Part shown: piece by piece, positions 7,779 to 22,139 of the stretch
How positions within the stretch are numbered: the stretch's first letter is position 1
Layout of the letters: the number at the start of each line of letters is the position of its first letter
Assembly (NCBI GenBank): GCA_026981865.1
Contig: JALSIA010000002.1
Span: 1 to 35,520, forward strand
Direction of reading: 5' to 3'
DNA: 35,520 bases
Source of the DNA: Thermaceae bacterium
GTDB taxonomy: Bacteria > Deinococcota > Deinococci > Deinococcales > Marinithermaceae
Notes under the pieces: generated by a model
What the model was told of the DNA's origin: nothing
The model's input: only the letters and a program-made list of their open reading frames with translations
The model's database searches: none
Made by a program: the position numbers and the translations under genes

Positions 7779-9638
7779 TCAGATGAGCTGGTTGACCACG
7801 ATCTGCACCGTGGCCGTACGGGTGTTACCGTCGGAATCGGTGACCACGAAGCGGATCTCGTGGAGGGTCGCCGGTTGCCCGGCCTGGACGTAGAGCCGGA
7901 CGGTCAGGGTGTTGCCCGTGCCCAGGAGCTGGCTCCCGCTGGCGGGCGCGCCCGGTTGCACGTCGCCGCGGTCGGTGTACCAGCTGCCGGTCAGCGCCCC
8001 GTCCTCGGCGTCGCTGGCCGTGCCCTGAAGGGTGATCTCGTAGTAGCGCCCCTCGGAATCGCTGCCGTTCGCCCAGACGTTCAGGTCGCCGCTGGGGTTG
8101 GTGATCGCCACCTGCGGCGGGGTGTTGGTGCAGGCCTGGACGGTCAGGTCGATGCTGTCCGTGGCCGTAGCGCCGTCGGCGTCGTCCACGCGGGCGCTGA
8201 AGCGCACCGTCCCCGGGTCCGAGAGGGTGTAGGTCGTGGTTGCGGTGTTGGAAGCGAACAGCGCACCCGCGAGCGCGTCGGTGGGGTCGGGGTCGTACCC
8301 CCAGTCCACCCGATTGCTCACGTTGCCGCTGCTGAAGTAGGGCGCGGTGTCGGTGTCGCTGGCCAGGGCCCGGAGGGTGACGGTCTCGTTCTGGCAGTAG
8401 GGGCCGGCGCTCGTGGGCTGGGTAATGGTCACGGCCGGCGGAACGTTGGCCAGCGTCACGGTCTGGGTGAGCCGGTCGAGCTCCACTCCGGAGATCTCCA
8501 CCACGGCCTCGAGCGTGTGGGCGCCCGCCGCGTACTCCCAGCTGGGCAAGGACAGCGACCGGTTCGAGGCGCCCACCTGGACTCCGTCGAAGTACCACTT
8601 TACGTGGGGTTCGACGGCCGCGGTGTCCCGGTCGTACTCGCCGTGCACCTCGGCCGTGAGGGGCCGGTTTCGGCTCAGGTTGTCCGCTGCGCCGAGCGTG
8701 AGGTTGGGGTCGTAGATGCTCAGAACGCCCAAAACGTCGCCGTCGCTCATGCCGTTGCGCTGTCCGATGCCGTCGCAGCTGATCCCGGGGTCCTTGGGCT
8801 CGAGGGTGCGCAAGCCGGAACGCTTGGCGAAGGCCGTACAAGGGTAGTGCATGACCGAGCTGAAATCGTAGGGGCCGATGTCCACGTTGAAGTTGAGGAC
8901 CCTGTCCGGGTTTTCAAAGTTGGGCTTTTTGTCGGGCTTGATGTTGTCCCAAAGGATCCGCACGTAGTCGTTGCGGTCGTCGCGCGTCTGCTCGTGATAG
9001 AAGCCGAGCGCGTGCATCGTCTCGTGGATCGCGGTTCCTCGGGCGTAGCATCCGTAACGGTCGGGGCCCCAGGCCTCCAACCACACCTCCGCGATACTGC
9101 GGCGGGAACCGTCCTGGTTGTGACCGATCCGCTCGGCATAGCAGCCGTCGCCTTCGGGCGCCTTGCGGTAGCGGATGCGGGGGCCGGAGGTGGCGTACAC
9201 GAAGTCCAGGTTGGTCCTGCGTTCGATCTCGCCGATTGCGTTCAGCACCACGGAGCGCAGGGTGGGGTCGCCGGGGTAGACGGTCCCTTCGTCTACGATC
9301 TCGAAGCGCACCGTCTTGTTCGGCCACTTGTCGCACCACCAGCGGTCGTAGTCGCAGCTGTTGCTGAGGGGTCCGAGGCCGGCTCCGCTAAGGGTCGCTA
9401 CCTCGTCCACGGTCCCCAGCACGATGTCGCCTTCGAAGACGACGAGGCCGTCCTTGACGGCGGCCTCGAAGCTCGAGCCGTCGGCTAGGCGGAAGTTGCG
9501 CACCTCTCCCGGCACCCCGGGCCGGTACTCTTCGACGGGGTAGGGCTTGCCCTCGCTTCCCGAGCGGGGAATGGGGGTGGAACAGGCCGCCAGCAGCGCG
9601 GCGAGCAGAAATCCCAGGAAAATCAACGACCTTTTCAT
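7779..9638 (-). CDS. Astacin-family (M12A) zinc metalloprotease, predicted lipoprotein with Ig/PKD-like repeats
   Basis: Encodes 619 residues. The N-terminus is a lipoprotein signal with lipobox LAAC (Cys19), predicting lipid anchoring outside the cytoplasmic membrane. Residues about 95-310 form an astacin catalytic domain: HETMHALGFYHEQTRDDR gives zinc ligands His205, His209 and His215 and catalytic Glu206, and SVMHYP (262-266) is the Met-turn with Tyr265. Cysteine pairs suggest disulfides. Residues about 320-619 contain three beta-sandwich Ig/PKD-like repeats, each opening with a valine-rich strand and carrying a VDDADGATA or VTDSDGNT motif, probably for substrate or surface binding. Start ATG 9636-9638 follows GGAGG. 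The target protein is unknown. Confidence 0.9.
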   Translation of the reverse strand: MKRSLIFLGFLLAALLAACSTPIPRSGSEGKPYPVEEYRPGVPGEVRNFRLADGSSFEAAVKDGLVVFEGDIVLGTVDEVATLSGAGLGPLSNSCDYDRWWCDKWPNKTVRFEIVDEGTVYPGDPTLRSVVLNAIGEIERRTNLDFVYATSGPRIRYRKAPEGDGCYAERIGHNQDGSRRSIAEVWLEAWGPDRYGCYARGTAIHETMHALGFYHEQTRDDRNDYVRILWDNIKPDKKPNFENPDRVLNFNVDIGPYDFSSVMHYPCTAFAKRSGLRTLEPKDPGISCDGIGQRNGMSDGDVLGVLSIYDPNLTLGAADNLSRNRPLTAEVHGEYDRDTAAVEPHVKWYFDGVQVGASNRSLSLPSWEYAAGAHTLEAVVEISGVELDRLTQTVTLANVPPAVTITQPTSAGPYCQNETVTLRALASDTDTAPYFSSGNVSNRVDWGYDPDPTDALAGALFASNTATTTYTLSDPGTVRFSARVDDADGATATDSIDLTVQACTNTPPQVAITNPSGDLNVWANGSDSEGRYYEITLQGTASDAEDGALTGSWYTDRGDVQPGAPASGSQLLGTGNTLTVRLYVQAGQPATLHEIRFVVTDSDGNTRTATVQIVVNQLI

Positions 9639-16548: not shown

Positions 16549-17673
16549 ATGCGCGCCGAGTGCCGCGAGGCCTCCACCCTGATCCACCCCGATCCCCGGC
16601 ACGTCCTCAGCTTCGACCGCGAGGGGCGGCTCTACACCTTCTACGACGACGGCGTCCTCTACAAGCGCGCCCTCGACAGCACCCTCCACTGGCGCCGGCG
16701 CGCTCCGGGAGGGCCGCGGGAGCGCGGGGTGCTGGACCCGGCGGAGGCGCTGGCGGTCTTCGCCCGGGTGCACGTGCACGCCCGCCGCGCCGCCCGGCTC
16801 CTCGAACCCGGCTGCGCCGCCCGCGTGGAGCGCGAGATCCTTCCCTGGACGCCCGAACGGCTCGCCGCCGAGCGCGCGCGCTTCCAGACCGTCTACCGGC
16901 CCATCGCCATCCTGCCGCCCGACCAGTACTTTTCCATCGTCGTCCAGGCCACCGAGGGCTGCACCTGGAACAAGTGCACCTTCTGCAGCTTTTACCAGGG
17001 CCGCCCCTTCCACGCCAAGACGCCCGAGCAGCTCAGGGCGCACGCCGCGGCGGTGCGCGATTTCCTGGGCCGCCAGCTGCTGCTGCGCCGCGGCGTCTTC
17101 CTGGCCGACGGCAACGCCCTGGCGCTTTCGCGGGCGCGCCTGCTGCCCATCTTCGAGGCGGTGCGCGAGGTCTTTCCAGGGCGCCGGATCTACGGCTTCG
17201 TGGACCTCTACAGCGGCGAGCGGCACGACCCGGCCGACTGGGGCGAGCTGGCGCGGCTGGGGCTCGAGCGCGTCTACGTGGGCATGGAGACCGGCCTCGA
17301 CGAGCTGCTGGCCTTCCTCAACAAGCCGGGCTCGGCCGATGAGCTGGTGGCCTTCGTGCGCGAACTCAAGGGGGCCGGGGTGCGCGTCGGCCTGATCGCG
17401 ATGGTGGGGGTGGGGGGGAGGGGTTACCGCGAGGCCCACGCCCGGGCCACGCTCGCGGCGCTGGCGCGGATGCCGCTCGACCGCGGCGACCTCGTCTACC
17501 TCTCGCCCTTCGTCGAGCACCCCGACTCGGCCTACGCCCGCGAGCGCGCGGCCGCGGGGCTGGAGCCGATGACCCGGGACGAGATCGAAGCCGAGACCGC
17601 ACGCCTCGCCGCCGAGGTGCGCCGCTTGGGCGTGCGCGCGGCCCGCTACGACATTCGCGAGTTCATCTACTGA
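16549..17673 (+). CDS. Radical SAM protein with CX4CX2C cluster motif, function unknown
   Basis: Encodes 374 residues. The 4Fe-4S cysteines are Cys138, Cys143 and Cys146 in EGCTWNKCTFCSFYQ, a CX4CX2C spacing rather than the usual CX3CX2C. An aromatic residue beside the last Cys, a downstream glutamate (VGMETGLDELL, about 243-253) and GVRVGLIAMVGVGG support a radical SAM barrel. The 120-residue N-terminal part opens with HVLSFDREGRLYTFY and is not one I recognise. No substrate can be assigned; a role in anaerobic or tRNA/cofactor chemistry would be a guess. It is expressed divergently from the APH-like kinase and overlaps the convergent membrane protein gene by 7 bases. Confidence 0.8.
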   Translation: MRAECREASTLIHPDPRHVLSFDREGRLYTFYDDGVLYKRALDSTLHWRRRAPGGPRERGVLDPAEALAVFARVHVHARRAARLLEPGCAARVEREILPWTPERLAAERARFQTVYRPIAILPPDQYFSIVVQATEGCTWNKCTFCSFYQGRPFHAKTPEQLRAHAAAVRDFLGRQLLLRRGVFLADGNALALSRARLLPIFEAVREVFPGRRIYGFVDLYSGERHDPADWGELARLGLERVYVGMETGLDELLAFLNKPGSADELVAFVRELKGAGVRVGLIAMVGVGGRGYREAHARATLAALARMPLDRGDLVYLSPFVEHPDSAYARERAAAGLEPMTRDEIEAETARLAAEVRRLGVRAARYDIREFIY

Positions 17674-18728
17674 GCTTCGTCCCGGCCGAAAAGGGTCACG
17701 CCCATGGCTAGGGCGAAGTAGAGCACCACGGCCACGGCGCTGAGGAGCCCGCCCCAAAGCCGCAGCGGCGGCGCGGTCAGGTAGTCGCCCAGGATGCGCG
17801 CGAAGAGCGCTGCGTGCAGCAGCCAAAGGGGCAGGTACATGGCCGGGTGGAAGCGGATCTTGAGGCGCAGCACCGCCGGGAAGATGACCGGGGCGTGGCC
17901 GAAGACCATCGCGAAGGTGAAGCCCACGAAGACCGCGTGCAGGGGGCCGTCGTACCCCGGGCCCGCCGGCGGCAGGCCCGCGAGCAGCATCCAGGCGCCG
18001 CCCACCAGCAGCCAGACGTAGCCGGTGAGCAGGCTCACACCCATGAACTTGTGCACCCCCTCGCGCTTCAGGTTGACCCAGGCGATGTCGAACTTGAGGA
18101 GCCAGACGCCCTGCAGCAGGAAACCCAGCCCCACCCAGCGCTCGGCGTGGAAGACGTTCAGCGCGGCCAGGACCAGCCCCGCAAGGGTGAGCAGCGTCAC
18201 CGCGATGAAGCCGCGGATCGCGGCTGCGGGTTTGGGCACGAAGCGCGAGAGCTCGAGCCGCTCGCCGGCCACGATGAAGACGATGAAGGCCATCCACCAG
18301 AGGCTCGTCACCTGCGGCGGGGCCGAGTACAGCCAGAACACGTCGCCCAGCAGCAGGGCGAGCGCGCCCAGGCCCATGACCAGGGTGAAGTCGGCGGGTT
18401 GCAGCCGGTAAATGTAGACGGCCACGGCGACGTAGAAGGCCGCGCCGGCGGTGAGCACGAGCTGCACCCAGCGCAGGTCCAGCCCCGCGAGGAAGCCCAG
18501 CCCGCCCAGCGCCATCAACACCGGGCCCACGTAGGTCCAGGCTTTGTTCAGCCCCACGGCGCGCTCGAGCGCGATCAGCGTTCCGAAGAAGGCGGCGACC
18601 ATCAGAGGGCCGTGCTGCCCGGCCAGCCCGGCCGCGGGCAGCGCCCAGCCGAGCCGCACCACACCGGCCCAGAGGCCGGTTACCATCAGCACCACCGATG
18701 CCACCAGCAGACCCACACGCAGGAACAT
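17667..18728 (-). CDS. Multi-pass membrane protein, NnrS-like
   Basis: Encodes 353 residues that are nearly all hydrophobic, with about 10-12 helices. Conserved-looking features are GQHGPLMVAAFFGTLIALERA (about 37-57), VAGERLELSRF (about 149-159), REGVHKFMGVSLLTGYVW and GHAPVIFPAVLRLKIRFHP. The histidines in helices recall NnrS-type proteins linked to nitrogen oxide metabolism, but assignment is by pattern only. The frame continues upstream into the dsRNA-binding gene; ATG 18728 is chosen because it lies 8 bases after that gene's stop and gives a membrane N-terminus. It overlaps the radical SAM gene tail by 7 bases. Confidence 0.55.
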   Translation of the reverse strand: MFLRVGLLVASVVLMVTGLWAGVVRLGWALPAAGLAGQHGPLMVAAFFGTLIALERAVGLNKAWTYVGPVLMALGGLGFLAGLDLRWVQLVLTAGAAFYVAVAVYIYRLQPADFTLVMGLGALALLLGDVFWLYSAPPQVTSLWWMAFIVFIVAGERLELSRFVPKPAAAIRGFIAVTLLTLAGLVLAALNVFHAERWVGLGFLLQGVWLLKFDIAWVNLKREGVHKFMGVSLLTGYVWLLVGGAWMLLAGLPPAGPGYDGPLHAVFVGFTFAMVFGHAPVIFPAVLRLKIRFHPAMYLPLWLLHAALFARILGDYLTAPPLRLWGGLLSAVAVVLYFALAMGVTLFGRDEAQ

Positions 18729-18736
18729 GACCCGGT

Positions 18737-19231
18737 CTACCTCGCTTCCTGGCCCAGCTCCTCGAGCAGGGCCTTGTAAACGTCGCCGGCGAAACGCGCC
18801 AGCTCTTCGCGCACGTCGCGCCCCTTGAGCGCCTGCGGCAGCCGGGCGTCGGCGATGCGCAACGCTTCGGCCAGCACCTCGGGGTAGACGGGCCAGCCGC
18901 CGCCGGCTTCGGAGGGCGCCGGGGCTTCGGTTTCCACCGGGCCCCGTTCGCCCTCTCCACTGGCGGCACGGGGCTTGCGCCGGCGCTTCCGGCTCTTCGT
19001 CTGGGGTTCGCCGTGGGTGCGCCGCAAAAGCTCGAGCGCCAGCTCCGCGGCCACCTTTTCCGCCTCGCGCTTGCTGCACCCCTGGCCGGTGGCGAGCAGC
19101 TCACCGTTCAGCGAGACGTCGCTGATGAAGAGGGGGTCGTCTTCGGTGCCGGTGCCCCGGGTCTCGAACTTGGGCAGCGGCAGGTTCTTGCTCTGGCAGT
19201 AGGCGTTCAAGGCGGATTTGGGATGCGTCAC
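18737..19231 (-). CDS. Stand-alone double-stranded RNA-binding domain protein
   Basis: Encodes 164 residues from GTG 19231. Residues about 3-70 match the dsRNA-binding fold: HPKSALNAYCQSKNLPLP (helix 1), PLFISDVSLNGELLATGQG (strands) and GCSKREAEKVAAELALELL (basic helix 2 N-terminus and A-rich helix). In most bacteria this fold is found only at the C-terminus of RNase III; here no nuclease domain is attached. A basic, disordered linker (TKSRKRRRKPR, about 79-89) leads to a helical C-terminal domain of about 55 residues that I do not recognise. GAGG at 7 bases supports GTG 19231 over the frame-open 19294. It is followed by the NnrS-like gene after 8 bases. Confidence 0.8.
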   Translation of the reverse strand: MTHPKSALNAYCQSKNLPLPKFETRGTGTEDDPLFISDVSLNGELLATGQGCSKREAEKVAAELALELLRRTHGEPQTKSRKRRRKPRAASGEGERGPVETEAPAPSEAGGGWPVYPEVLAEALRIADARLPQALKGRDVREELARFAGDVYKALLEELGQEAR

Positions 19232-19280: not shown

Positions 19281-19319
19281 ATTCTAGCACGCACGTGCGG
19301 GGGCGTTTCGTTTTACAAT
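19281..19319. promoter_or_regulatory. Divergent promoters with central CGCACGTGCG palindrome
   Basis: The minus-strand TAGAAT (19281-19286) suits the dsRNA-binding gene, giving a leader of about 44 bases that contains a small CCGCC/GGCGG hairpin. The plus-strand TACAAT (19314-19319) suits the response regulator, 7 bases before its ATG. The perfect 10-bp palindrome CGCACGTGCG (19290-19299) sits between them and is an operator candidate. Confidence 0.5.
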
Positions 19320-19326
19320 GAACGGG

Positions 19327-19977
19327 ATGATTCGAATCCTGATAGCCGACGACCACTCCCTCTTCCGCCAGGGCTTGCGTTCGCTGCTCGAGGCCGAGGG
19401 GGACCTGCGGGTGATCGGCGAAGCCGCGAGCGGGCGCGAAGCCCTCAGGGCCGCGCTCGAGACCCGACCCGACATCGTGCTCATGGACATTCAGATGCCC
19501 GGGCTCGACGGCGTGGAGGCCACCAAGGAGATCCTCAAGGAGTTCCCCGAGGCCAAAGTGATCATGCTCACCATGTACCGCCAGGACGCCTACGTCTTCG
19601 AGGCGGTCAAGGCGGGCGCGCGCGGCTACCTGCTCAAGGACGTGGACGCCGAGGCCCTGGTCGACGCGGTGCGCCGCGTCAACGAGGGCGAGGTGCTGCT
19701 CGACGCCGAGCTCGCCGAGCAGATCATCCACGACTTCCGGGCCAAGCGCGACGTGCTGCCCCAGGCCCACCACGCCGACCTCACCGACCGCGAGGTGCAG
19801 ATCCTGCGCCTTCTGGCCCAGGGGGCGACGAACCAGGAGATCGCCGACGAGCTCGGCATCTCGGAGAAGACGGTGCGCAACCGGCTCTCCGAGATCTTCT
19901 CGAAGCTGCACCTCAACAACCGCACCCAGGCTGCGCTGTACGCGATCCGCGAGGGCCTGGCCGACATCGAGGAATGA
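19327..19977 (+). CDS. NarL/FixJ-family response regulator (orphan)
   Basis: Encodes 216 residues. The receiver domain has the acidic pair Asp8-Asp9, phospho-acceptor Asp54 in VLMDIQMPG, the Thr in IMLTMYRQ and the Lys in GYLLKDVD. A LuxR-type helix-turn-helix follows (about 150-210: [23 protein letters not shown] and [14 protein letters not shown]). It would bind DNA after phosphorylation. An ATG at 19318 lies inside the -10 box TACAAT, so the next in-frame ATG, 19327, is taken as the start; it is 7 bases from the box and leaderless. No histidine kinase is adjacent. The stop overlaps the next gene's ATG by 4 bases. Confidence 0.93.
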
Positions 19978-20987
19978 CCCCCCAGGACTTCCTGCGCCGC
20001 TTCGGGGCGGTGGCCGGCGACGAGGCCAGGGCCGACTTCCTGGCCGAGTTTTTTTCCGACCGGGGCGAGCGCCCGATCCGTGACGAAGAGGGGAACCTCT
20101 GGGTGGGGGAGGGGCCCGTCGCCTTCGCCGCCCACATCGACACGGTGCTCACCCCGCGGCCGCTTACCCTCGAGTCCGAGCGCTGGTGGGGGCCGGCCGT
20201 GGGGGACAACTCCAGCGGCGTCGCCGTGCTGGCCACCGCCTGGTCGCGCGTCCCCGAGGGGGCGACGCTGGTCTTCACCGTGGGCGAGGAAGGCCTCGGC
20301 AACCTGCGCGGCGCCCGCGCCTTCGTGCGAGCCCGCCGCCCCGAGGTTTTCGTAGCCGTGGACGGCTACCTGGGCAACCTGGTCACCCGCGCCCTCGGCT
20401 CGGTGCGTTTCGAGGTGCGCTTCAGCGGTCCGGGCGGGCATTCCTGGGGCGACCGCAGCGCGCCCAACCCCGCCTGGGCGCTGGGGCGGCTGATCCGCGC
20501 GGTGCAGGCGCTGCCCTGTTGCGAGCGTTCCAGCCGCAGCGTGGCGCGGATCTGGGGCGGGGAGGCCATCAACGCCATTCCCCGCGAGGTCGGGCTGGCG
20601 CTGGACGTGCGCGCGACCGAAGAAGGACCGCTCGCCGAAGCAGAACGCGAGGTGCGCACCCGAGCCATGGAGGCGGCCCAGCTCGAGCGGGTCCAGGCCG
20701 AGATCGCCCTTTTGGGCCGCAGACCGGCGGGCTCGACGGCCACCGAGGCCCTGCGCGACTGCGCGCTGCAGGCGGCCGCGGGCACCGGCGTCGCCGCCGA
20801 GGAGGGCGTGGGTTCGACCGACATGGCCGCGGCGGTCGAGGCAGGCATACCGGCGATCACGCTCGGGGTCTACCGCGGCGGCGGCGCCCACACCGAGGCC
20901 GAGTGGGTGGACCCGGCCTCGCTGGACCTGGGCGCCGCCTGGTTGCGCGCCTTTTGGAGGTGTCTGCGTGGAAGCGCTGCTGCGTAA
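19974..20987 (+). CDS. M20-family metallopeptidase/amidohydrolase
   Basis: Encodes 337 residues with the di-metal site of M20 enzymes: AAHIDTV (about 53-59), [12 protein letters not shown] (bridging Asp, about 75-86), [12 protein letters not shown] (general-base Glu pair) and VDGYLGN. The dimerisation-domain motif GPGGHSWGD follows, and the last metal ligand is His in GGAHTEAEW. It resembles the PepT/carboxypeptidase-like branch; LysK/ArgE-type deacylases are alternatives, but their GRGxxDxKG motif is missing. ATG 19974 overlaps the response regulator stop (ATGA), an unusual coupling. It overlaps the next small gene by 20 bases. Confidence 0.85.
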
Positions 20988-21264
20988 GCTTCAGGAAGAC
21001 GGCGTCTACTACGTTGCCCAGACGGGCGACGCCGAGGGTGTGAGCTACGCCACCGTCGAGCTGGACGGCGAGCTCTTCATGTACGCTTTTTCCAGTGCGG
21101 AGGCGGCGCGGCCCCTCGCCGAGGCCGTGGGCGGGCGGGTGCACTGGCACCCGGTGCTGGCGGAGGTCTTCGAGGCCTTTCCCGAAGAGCTTGCGGGGCT
21201 CGTGGTGGACGTGGACCTGGAAACCGGCGAAGGCTGGCTGCTGCGACCGGACGAGGTGTCCTGA
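20968..21264 (+). CDS. Small protein, SseB N-terminal domain-like
   Basis: Encodes 98 acidic residues with no signal peptide or membrane segment. The pattern VELDGELFMYAFSSAEAARPLAEAVGG, followed by a middle section ending in GLVVDVDLETGEGWLL, resembles the SseB-like N-terminal domain, which has a strand-turn-FTS-helix start and a hydrophobic strand near the end. Similarity is by eye only. GTG 20968 is chosen because GGAGGTG precedes it. It overlaps the M20 gene by 20 bases and so is probably in the same operon. Function unknown. Confidence 0.6.
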   Translation: MEALLRKLQEDGVYYVAQTGDAEGVSYATVELDGELFMYAFSSAEAARPLAEAVGGRVHWHPVLAEVFEAFPEELAGLVVDVDLETGEGWLLRPDEVS

Positions 21265-21293: not shown

Positions 21294-22139
21294 ATGCGCC
21301 TAGGATTGGTCGACACCTGGATGAGCGAGCGGTACCTGCCCTTCTGGCGGGCCTACCTGCGCGAGCTGGGCGCCGAGTTGCTCGAGCCGCGGCTGCCGGT
21401 CAGCGAGGCGCTGGCGCGGCTCGAGGAGCCCTGGCCCCGTCCCGCACGGCTGCTGGCGGCGCGCGTGCTGGAGCTGAAAGCCCGCGGCGCCGAGGCGGTC
21501 CTCGTGCCCGAGGCGGCGGGGGAGAGCCCCAGGGGCACCGGAACCTGCCCCTGGGCGGTGGACCCGGCGAGCATGCTCGAGCGCGTTCTTCCCGGCCTCC
21601 CGCCGCTGGTGCGGGTACCCCCCGAACTTTCCGAGCGGGTGCTGGGTCTGGCGGCGCGCATCGGCCAGGAGCTGGTGCAGAACCCCCAGGAGGTCCGCCG
21701 CGCCCTCGACCGCACCCGGCAGCTGCTGAAACCCTACAAGCCCCCCGCCATGCCCCGCGGTGCGCGTCTGCTGGGCCTGGCGGCGATGCCCTACCTGCTC
21801 GGCGACGAGCGCCTCTACCCCGAGGTGCAGCAGGCCGCCGAGGCCGCGGGCTGGACGACCGCCCGGCCCGACGCGAGCCCCGAGCGGCTGCGCGAGGAGG
21901 GCGGGCGCACGGGGCTCAACATCGATCTACCCACCGACCTGGAGTTCGCCGGAGCGGCGCACTACCTGGGCCGGCTCGGCCGCGTGGGCGGGTTGCTGCT
22001 CGTCGTCTGCGACCACTGCCCGCCCGAGGAACGGCTGGCGCGCAGGCTCGCCGCGGCCGCGCCGGGGCCCGTGGCCGTGCACGTCCTCGGCGAGGACCCG
22101 CAGGCGGCGCTCGAGCGCATCCAGAAAGCCGCCGGCTAG
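21294..22139 (+). CDS. Protein resembling the 2-hydroxyacyl-CoA dehydratase component family (COG3580/DUF2229-like)
   Basis: Encodes 281 soluble residues. The N-terminus RLGLVDTWMSERYLPFWRAY followed by LRELGAELLEPRLPVSEA resembles COG3580/DUF2229 proteins, relatives of the D component of 2-hydroxyacyl-CoA dehydratases, where a parallel start is followed by cysteine cluster ligands. A second Rossmann-like section begins at LLGLAAMPYLLGDERLYPEV (about 160-179). The protein is short, and only two cysteines in plausible places are visible (GTCPWAVD near 83-90 and CDHCPPEE near 240-247), so cluster binding is doubtful. It may instead be a non-catalytic relative. The assignment is tentative. Confidence 0.4.
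   Translation: MRLGLVDTWMSERYLPFWRAYLRELGAELLEPRLPVSEALARLEEPWPRPARLLAARVLELKARGAEAVLVPEAAGESPRGTGTCPWAVDPASMLERVLPGLPPLVRVPPELSERVLGLAARIGQELVQNPQEVRRALDRTRQLLKPYKPPAMPRGARLLGLAAMPYLLGDERLYPEVQQAAEAAGWTTARPDASPERLREEGGRTGLNIDLPTDLEFAGAAHYLGRLGRVGGLLLVVCDHCPPEERLARRLAAAAPGPVAVHVLGEDPQAALERIQKAAG

Follow-up and report, generated by a model that had tools for sequence, protein, structure and literature searches.

The window analysed here (the whole stretch of 35,520 nucleotides from a Thermaceae bacterium, contig JALSIA010000002.1) carries on its minus strand a gene for a small protein with a double-stranded RNA-binding domain (dsRBD), next to a divergently oriented response regulator gene (Table 1). 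The dsRBD gene starts with GTG at position 19231 and ends with a stop codon at 18737–18739. The original prediction described its product as a free-standing dsRBD protein of 164 residues devoid of an RNase III domain, and this description holds. The open reading frame was confirmed, and PF00035 matched residues 4–69 over the entire 66-position profile (1–66; E 6.3e-15; 55.9 bits against a cut-off of 23 bits), while neither the Pfam profiles nor TIGR02191 revealed an RNase III catalytic domain with an ERLEFLGD-type signature. TIGR02191, the NCBIfam model of RNase III, aligned solely at positions 152–218 of its 219, that is, in its dsRBD part, and scored far under the cut-off. A chance open reading frame can be excluded, because full-length homologues exist in 55 genomes and dN/dS within the genus is low (see below).

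Table 1. Features of the dsRBD locus (positions refer to the window).
Feature	Position	Strand	Basis or remark
Free-standing dsRBD protein gene	18737..19231	-	164 aa + stop, GTG start; 55 homologues, purifying selection
dsRBD, residues 4-69	19025..19222	-	PF00035, AlphaFold2, contact-residue table
dsRBD contact positions			Ala10 instead of alpha-1 Glu, GTED instead of GPxH loop, K54-R55 basic pair retained
Linker, residues 81-110, disordered, Arg/Lys cluster	18902..18991	-	pLDDT <50, fastest evolving part, charge differs between families
C-terminal two-helix module, residues 111-164	18740..18901	-	Alignment A1, AlphaFold2, no Pfam/PDB match
Promoter-like extended -10 of dsRBD gene (TGCTAGAAT)	19281..19289	-	Upstream comparison
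NarL/LuxR-type response regulator, divergent neighbour	19327..19977	+	Pfam Response_reg + GerE; adjacent in families f1, f3, f5

An AlphaFold2 model of the protein, built from a five-sequence alignment, predicts for the N-terminal domain a helix (4–14), three strands (21–28, 33–41 and 44–51) and a second helix (54–73) at pLDDT >90, which is the expected alpha-beta-beta-beta-alpha fold. After the disordered linker (81–110), two further helices are predicted at 117–130 and 140–158. In a Foldseek search against the PDB, the top match of the window protein was the dsRBD of Thermotoga maritima RNase III. Together with the TIGR02191 alignment, this bears out the proposed relation of the domain to the RNase III tail. 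The second part of the protein had been described as an unknown helical C-terminal domain, and this domain is real and conserved. Modelled alone, it forms a helical hairpin (pTM 0.67) that found no structural match in the PDB (best E 4.4), and a Pfam search with 22 members returned no family, except for weak single-member hits. Alignment A1 shows conserved W113, L120, A127, R130, Y152, K153 and G160 in this module. We also asked whether the C-terminal module conceals a nuclease and rejected this idea, since Pfam, PDB sequences and fold comparison all gave no match.

The distribution of the protein was followed in 111 Deinococcota genomes from 31 genera, 85 of these genomes being at least 90% complete; the counts refer to Deinococcota outside the genus Deinococcus itself. 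PF00035 matched once, and only once, in 55 genomes and not at all in the remaining 56, and a full-length profile made from alignment A1 recovered the identical 55 genomes (in three of them a long linker interrupted the match, and one had an additional C-terminal fragment). The protein thus occurs in 25 of the 31 genera. The six genera that lack it, as deduced from the listing, are g9 and g10–g14, the latter being all five genera of family f4, which we take to be the Thermus/Meiothermus type. Like the fold, the conservation that the original prediction proposed to check came out in its favour and reaches far past this genome, but as conservation across Thermaceae it breaks down in these five genera. 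Several genomes of positive families are negative as well (G015, G018 and G019, for example), and such gaps may reflect incomplete genomes. All 55 homologues have one dsRBD per protein and share a common plan: the dsRBD, a variable linker and a conserved C-terminal block (GPWPxF..VLA..L.VA..RV...LxG, then LYKxxLxxLGE). The homologue at locus L059 is 84% identical to the window protein. A degenerate-peptide scan of genome contigs found only four loci, apparently all from Deinococcota. No relative turned up among phages, plasmids and viral contigs, so nothing there suggests that the protein is mobile or of phage type.

Selection on the protein was estimated by region, comparing the window gene with four genomes within the genus. 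For the dsRBD, dN/dS was 0.05–0.08 against three genomes and 0.34 against the most distant one; the corresponding values for the C-terminal module were 0.06–0.09 and 0.24, and those for the linker (residues 76–110) were 0.20–0.51. These values point to strong purifying selection on the dsRBD and the C-terminal module, though not on the linker. In the protein tree, family f1—that of the window—forms one group with support of 100/97, and the tree needs four label changes for four families, where three is the minimum. Since f1 forms one group and the number of label changes is near-minimal, vertical inheritance of the protein looks likely.

No operon partner or RNA-enzyme neighbour of the dsRBD gene is conserved; the conserved neighbour is the divergent response regulator. 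Its identity to the window copy is 63–83% in most families and 44% in one f3 genome. The two genes stand apart in family f2, and a gap of about 1.8 kb separates them in genome G108. In an f4 genome (G022, locus L091), the order of ABC transporters, a homologue of the window's 21294 gene, M20 peptidase and response regulator, followed by APH kinase and UPRT, is kept, and a TetR-like gene with a small SMR-like transporter (names given by reading the sequences) occupies the slot of the dsRBD gene. As f1, f3 and f5 have the dsRBD–regulator pair in common, the simplest reading is that f4 would have lost the dsRBD gene. A sigma-70 scan requiring a -35 element found no promoter upstream of this gene; a variant of an extended -10 (TGCTAGAAT, TGCTAAAAT or TGTTACAAT) is present in each f1 upstream region. 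An autoregulatory hairpin conserved in the 5' leader was considered too and was rejected, the short stems there being unlike between species. On the regulator side, TACAAT lies seven bases upstream of the ATG at 19327 (19314–19329), and homologues begin at that ATG (MIRI...). The regulator thus looks to be transcribed leaderless, and the start listed for it, 19318, probably lies too far upstream. The Marinithermus-like genome G009 has two close copies of this regulator (C1:2136311-2136952, locus L101, and 1592333-1592983), which are 82–83% identical to that of the window; only one of them adjoins a dsRBD gene.

The original prediction had suggested checking whether the protein co-occurs with RNase III. 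The catalytic profiles PF14622 and PF00636 matched none of the 111 genomes (0 of the 85 at 90% completeness or above), with 8 of 14 controls positive. Deinobacterium chartae, a named control, had a PF00035 match and neither RNase III profile. A query with E. coli RNase III (205 residues, the first ~20 missing) against 12 genomes found no full-length relative; the sole matches at E<0.001 were the free-standing dsRBDs of three f1 genomes, aligned through the dsRBD of the query, and in the window's own genome the enzyme likewise matched only this domain. The lack of RNase III in D. radiodurans has already been published (PMC8708148; PMC3531473); new here are the extent of this absence across the phylum sample and the companion dsRBD protein. 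We found no published report on the dsRBD family, our coverage leaving most subscription journals outside.

By single-domain score, the closest solved relative of the window dsRBD is T. maritima RNase III (33.4 bits), and that of an f5 member is M. tuberculosis RNase III (35.4 bits); eukaryotic multi-dsRBD proteins score high solely through summed domains. From such similarities we infer that the dsRBD may derive from the tail of RNase III; the scores fit this descent, yet a domain of 66 residues is no proof of it. Given that all Deinococcota genomes searched are without RNase III, this domain seems either to have survived the enzyme or to have taken its place. In a fuller scenario, Deinococcota would have split RNase III, losing the catalytic half phylum-wide and joining the dsRNA-gripping half to a new partner module; the resulting protein would hand over dsRNA or the stems of pre-rRNA to a nuclease of unrelated origin. 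We regard such a two-part replacement of RNase III as unlikely. Far less credible is the opposite extreme, a functionless, degenerate remnant of RNase III. The absence of the protein from f4 and of RNase III from the phylum sample would suit such a relic, but dN/dS of 0.05–0.09 in both folded parts (three of four pairs) contradicts it, as does the keeping of a single copy in 25 of 31 genera together with a conserved neighbour and promoter motif.

How well the protein could hold RNA is a separate matter. A dsRBD contacts RNA at three places: the glutamate of its first helix (alpha-1), the GPxH loop between beta1 and beta2, and the basic residues that open its second helix. In f5, the largest family, the loop histidine is present in 37 of 37 members and the alpha-1 glutamate in 31 of 37; both are present in all four members of f2. 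In f1, by contrast, the helix-1 position holds Ala (10/11) or Gly (1/11) and the loop histidine survives in a single member, while the basic pair is found in 11 of 11. The basic helix motif, earlier called intact, is indeed there (K54 and R55), but the other two contact regions are altered in the window protein and its close relatives, so that one of three is kept. With the alpha-1 glutamate lost in 11 of 11 members and the loop histidine in 10 of 11, affinity for dsRNA may be low in the window's family. The Arg/Lys-rich linker that had been pointed out is likewise real in f1, where its net charge is +4 to +8 (median +5), but it is not family-wide; since the value in f5 is about -2, a basic linker appears to be largely a trait of the window's clade. 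Such a linker may compensate for the dsRBD contacts lost in f1. Very long Lys/Ala-rich linkers of up to ~156 residues, resembling histone H1 tails, occur in f5 (L013, L014, L015, L026 and L031).

The same residues raise the question of whether the f1 dsRBD has become a domain for protein–protein interaction that has given up dsRNA binding. Losing the alpha-1 glutamate and the GPxH loop with the rest under strong selection, and a median net charge of -1 for the f1 dsRBD, would agree with such a change of role. Against it, the basic pair at 54–55 is retained in all f1 members, and the linker is more basic exactly there. Moreover, the alignment shows that T. maritima RNase III has no GPxH loop either, and loss of the loop alone therefore does not rule out dsRNA binding. 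We consider this change of role improbable.

Ribosomal RNA was examined as a possible target. In G011 (f1) and in G030 and G037 (f4), long distances separate the 16S from the 23S genes; elsewhere, some rRNA was not located and is possibly masked. A gapless helix search found stem cores of 12–17 bp flanking several rRNA genes in f1/f5 and f4 genomes alike, several of these cores falling inside the shuffled range; duplex energies computed on long rRNA flanks were uninformative. With stems present in genomes both with and without the dsRBD protein, and several within the shuffled range, this search does not single rRNA out as the target. As f4 lacks the protein and yet has the stems, the protein is not required everywhere for cutting them. 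Earlier work cited in PMC7761764 linked unlinked rRNA genes to fewer RNase III genes; that paper's own analysis gives no significant difference. Unlinked rRNA genes could make the loss of RNase III understandable, without tying the dsRBD protein to rRNA. A side observation concerns the 5' flanks of 23S and 16S at L060, L067, L068 and L069, where GATCTTGAAAG or GAATCTTGAAAG opens the 5' side of the stem; the motif is common to both rRNAs and to two families and is possibly a processing signal in this RNase III-less phylum.

A related proposal, by analogy with mL44, a protein of the mitochondrial ribosome that combines an RNase III-like fold with a dsRBD, is a ribosome-associated factor that would bind an rRNA stem during assembly. 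The dsRBDs of mL44 were among the top Foldseek matches, and rRNA genes in the phylum are unlinked, often with 12–17 bp flanking stems. However, other dsRBDs matched at least as well as those of mL44, and f4 makes ribosomes without the protein, which leaves us with strong doubts about this role.

Among known systems, the C-terminal dsRBD of bacterial RNase III (T. maritima 1o0w, M. tuberculosis 2a11, E. coli rnc) has the same fold and the K/R-K/R-x-A-E helix, and that of the E. coli enzyme aligns with the window protein at 34% identity. In contrast to these enzymes, the window protein has no catalytic domain, its dsRBD is N-terminal with the new helical module behind it, and the minor-groove residues are missing in its family. 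Mini-III of B. subtilis, an RNase III catalytic domain without a dsRBD, is the opposite half of that split (PMC8708148). The sample of 111 genomes gave no match to an RNase III domain of whatever kind. DRB2/3/4, HYL1, TRBP, Loquacious, Staufen and vaccinia E3, to which sequence matches were found, are likewise dsRBD proteins without a nuclease. Several of these serve as nuclease adaptors. Unlike the Deinococcota protein with its one dsRBD, these eukaryotic and viral proteins mostly have at least two and differ in their C-terminal parts, and shared descent of the whole proteins is unsupported.

Overall, we infer that the protein binds structured RNA, and our guess is that its C-terminal module serves either for dimerisation or for the recruitment of a partner. 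Our preferred reading, to which we give a probability of about one half, is a non-catalytic protein that acts on structured RNA as an adaptor or chaperone and whose C-terminal module is the partner site. The dsRBD, aided by the basic linker in the f1 clade, would hold RNA helices, for instance antisense duplexes or the stems of rRNA; the two-helix module would hold the partner, either through dimerisation or by recruiting another RNA-processing factor. A single dsRBD of the bacterial RNase III type persists here in a lineage devoid of the catalytic domain. We favour this reading because of the PF00035 match and the predicted fold, the structural and single-domain matches to bacterial RNase III, the single copy in 55 of 111 genomes, the absence of RNase III, the conservation of the folded parts and the canonical contact residues that f2 and most of f5 retain. 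It is weakened by the contact residues lost in f1, by the lack of an operon partner and by f4, which lacks the protein but has the stems.

Somewhat less doubtful than the other alternatives, though still not probable in our opinion, is a plain dsRNA shield or RNA chaperone that coats antisense duplexes or rRNA stems without any partner, its C-terminal module merely dimerising. One dsRBD, a disordered linker and a small hairpin that, as modelled, might be able to dimerise would suffice for such a task, and neither a nuclease domain nor a conserved RNA-enzyme neighbour is present. However, the C-terminal module is conserved as strongly as the dsRBD, and since this conservation includes the polar R130, Y152 and mostly K153, a specific contact is suggested.

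To the matter of how RNase III-less bacteria handle dsRNA and trim rRNA precursors, the family contributes a concrete, phylum-wide candidate, whose gene can be deleted in cultured relatives. It is also an example of a bacterial dsRBD maintained as a protein of its own alongside a conserved, partner-like module, an arrangement otherwise familiar from the adaptors of RNA silencing in eukaryotes.

Finally, we would like to mention some other genes of the window. The products of 17667-18728 (-), 20968-21261 (+) and 21294-22136 (+) matched no Pfam family, and one of them is, by eye, a multi-helix membrane protein. The 21294 protein has counterparts at the equivalent position in Meiothermus-type genomes (40–43% identity) and in the Marinithermus-like genome (54%). 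Astacins are mainly an animal-type peptidase family, and 7782-9638 (-) encodes a lipoprotein-like astacin metalloprotease with Ig-like domains (Pfam Astacin, 1.6e-36).
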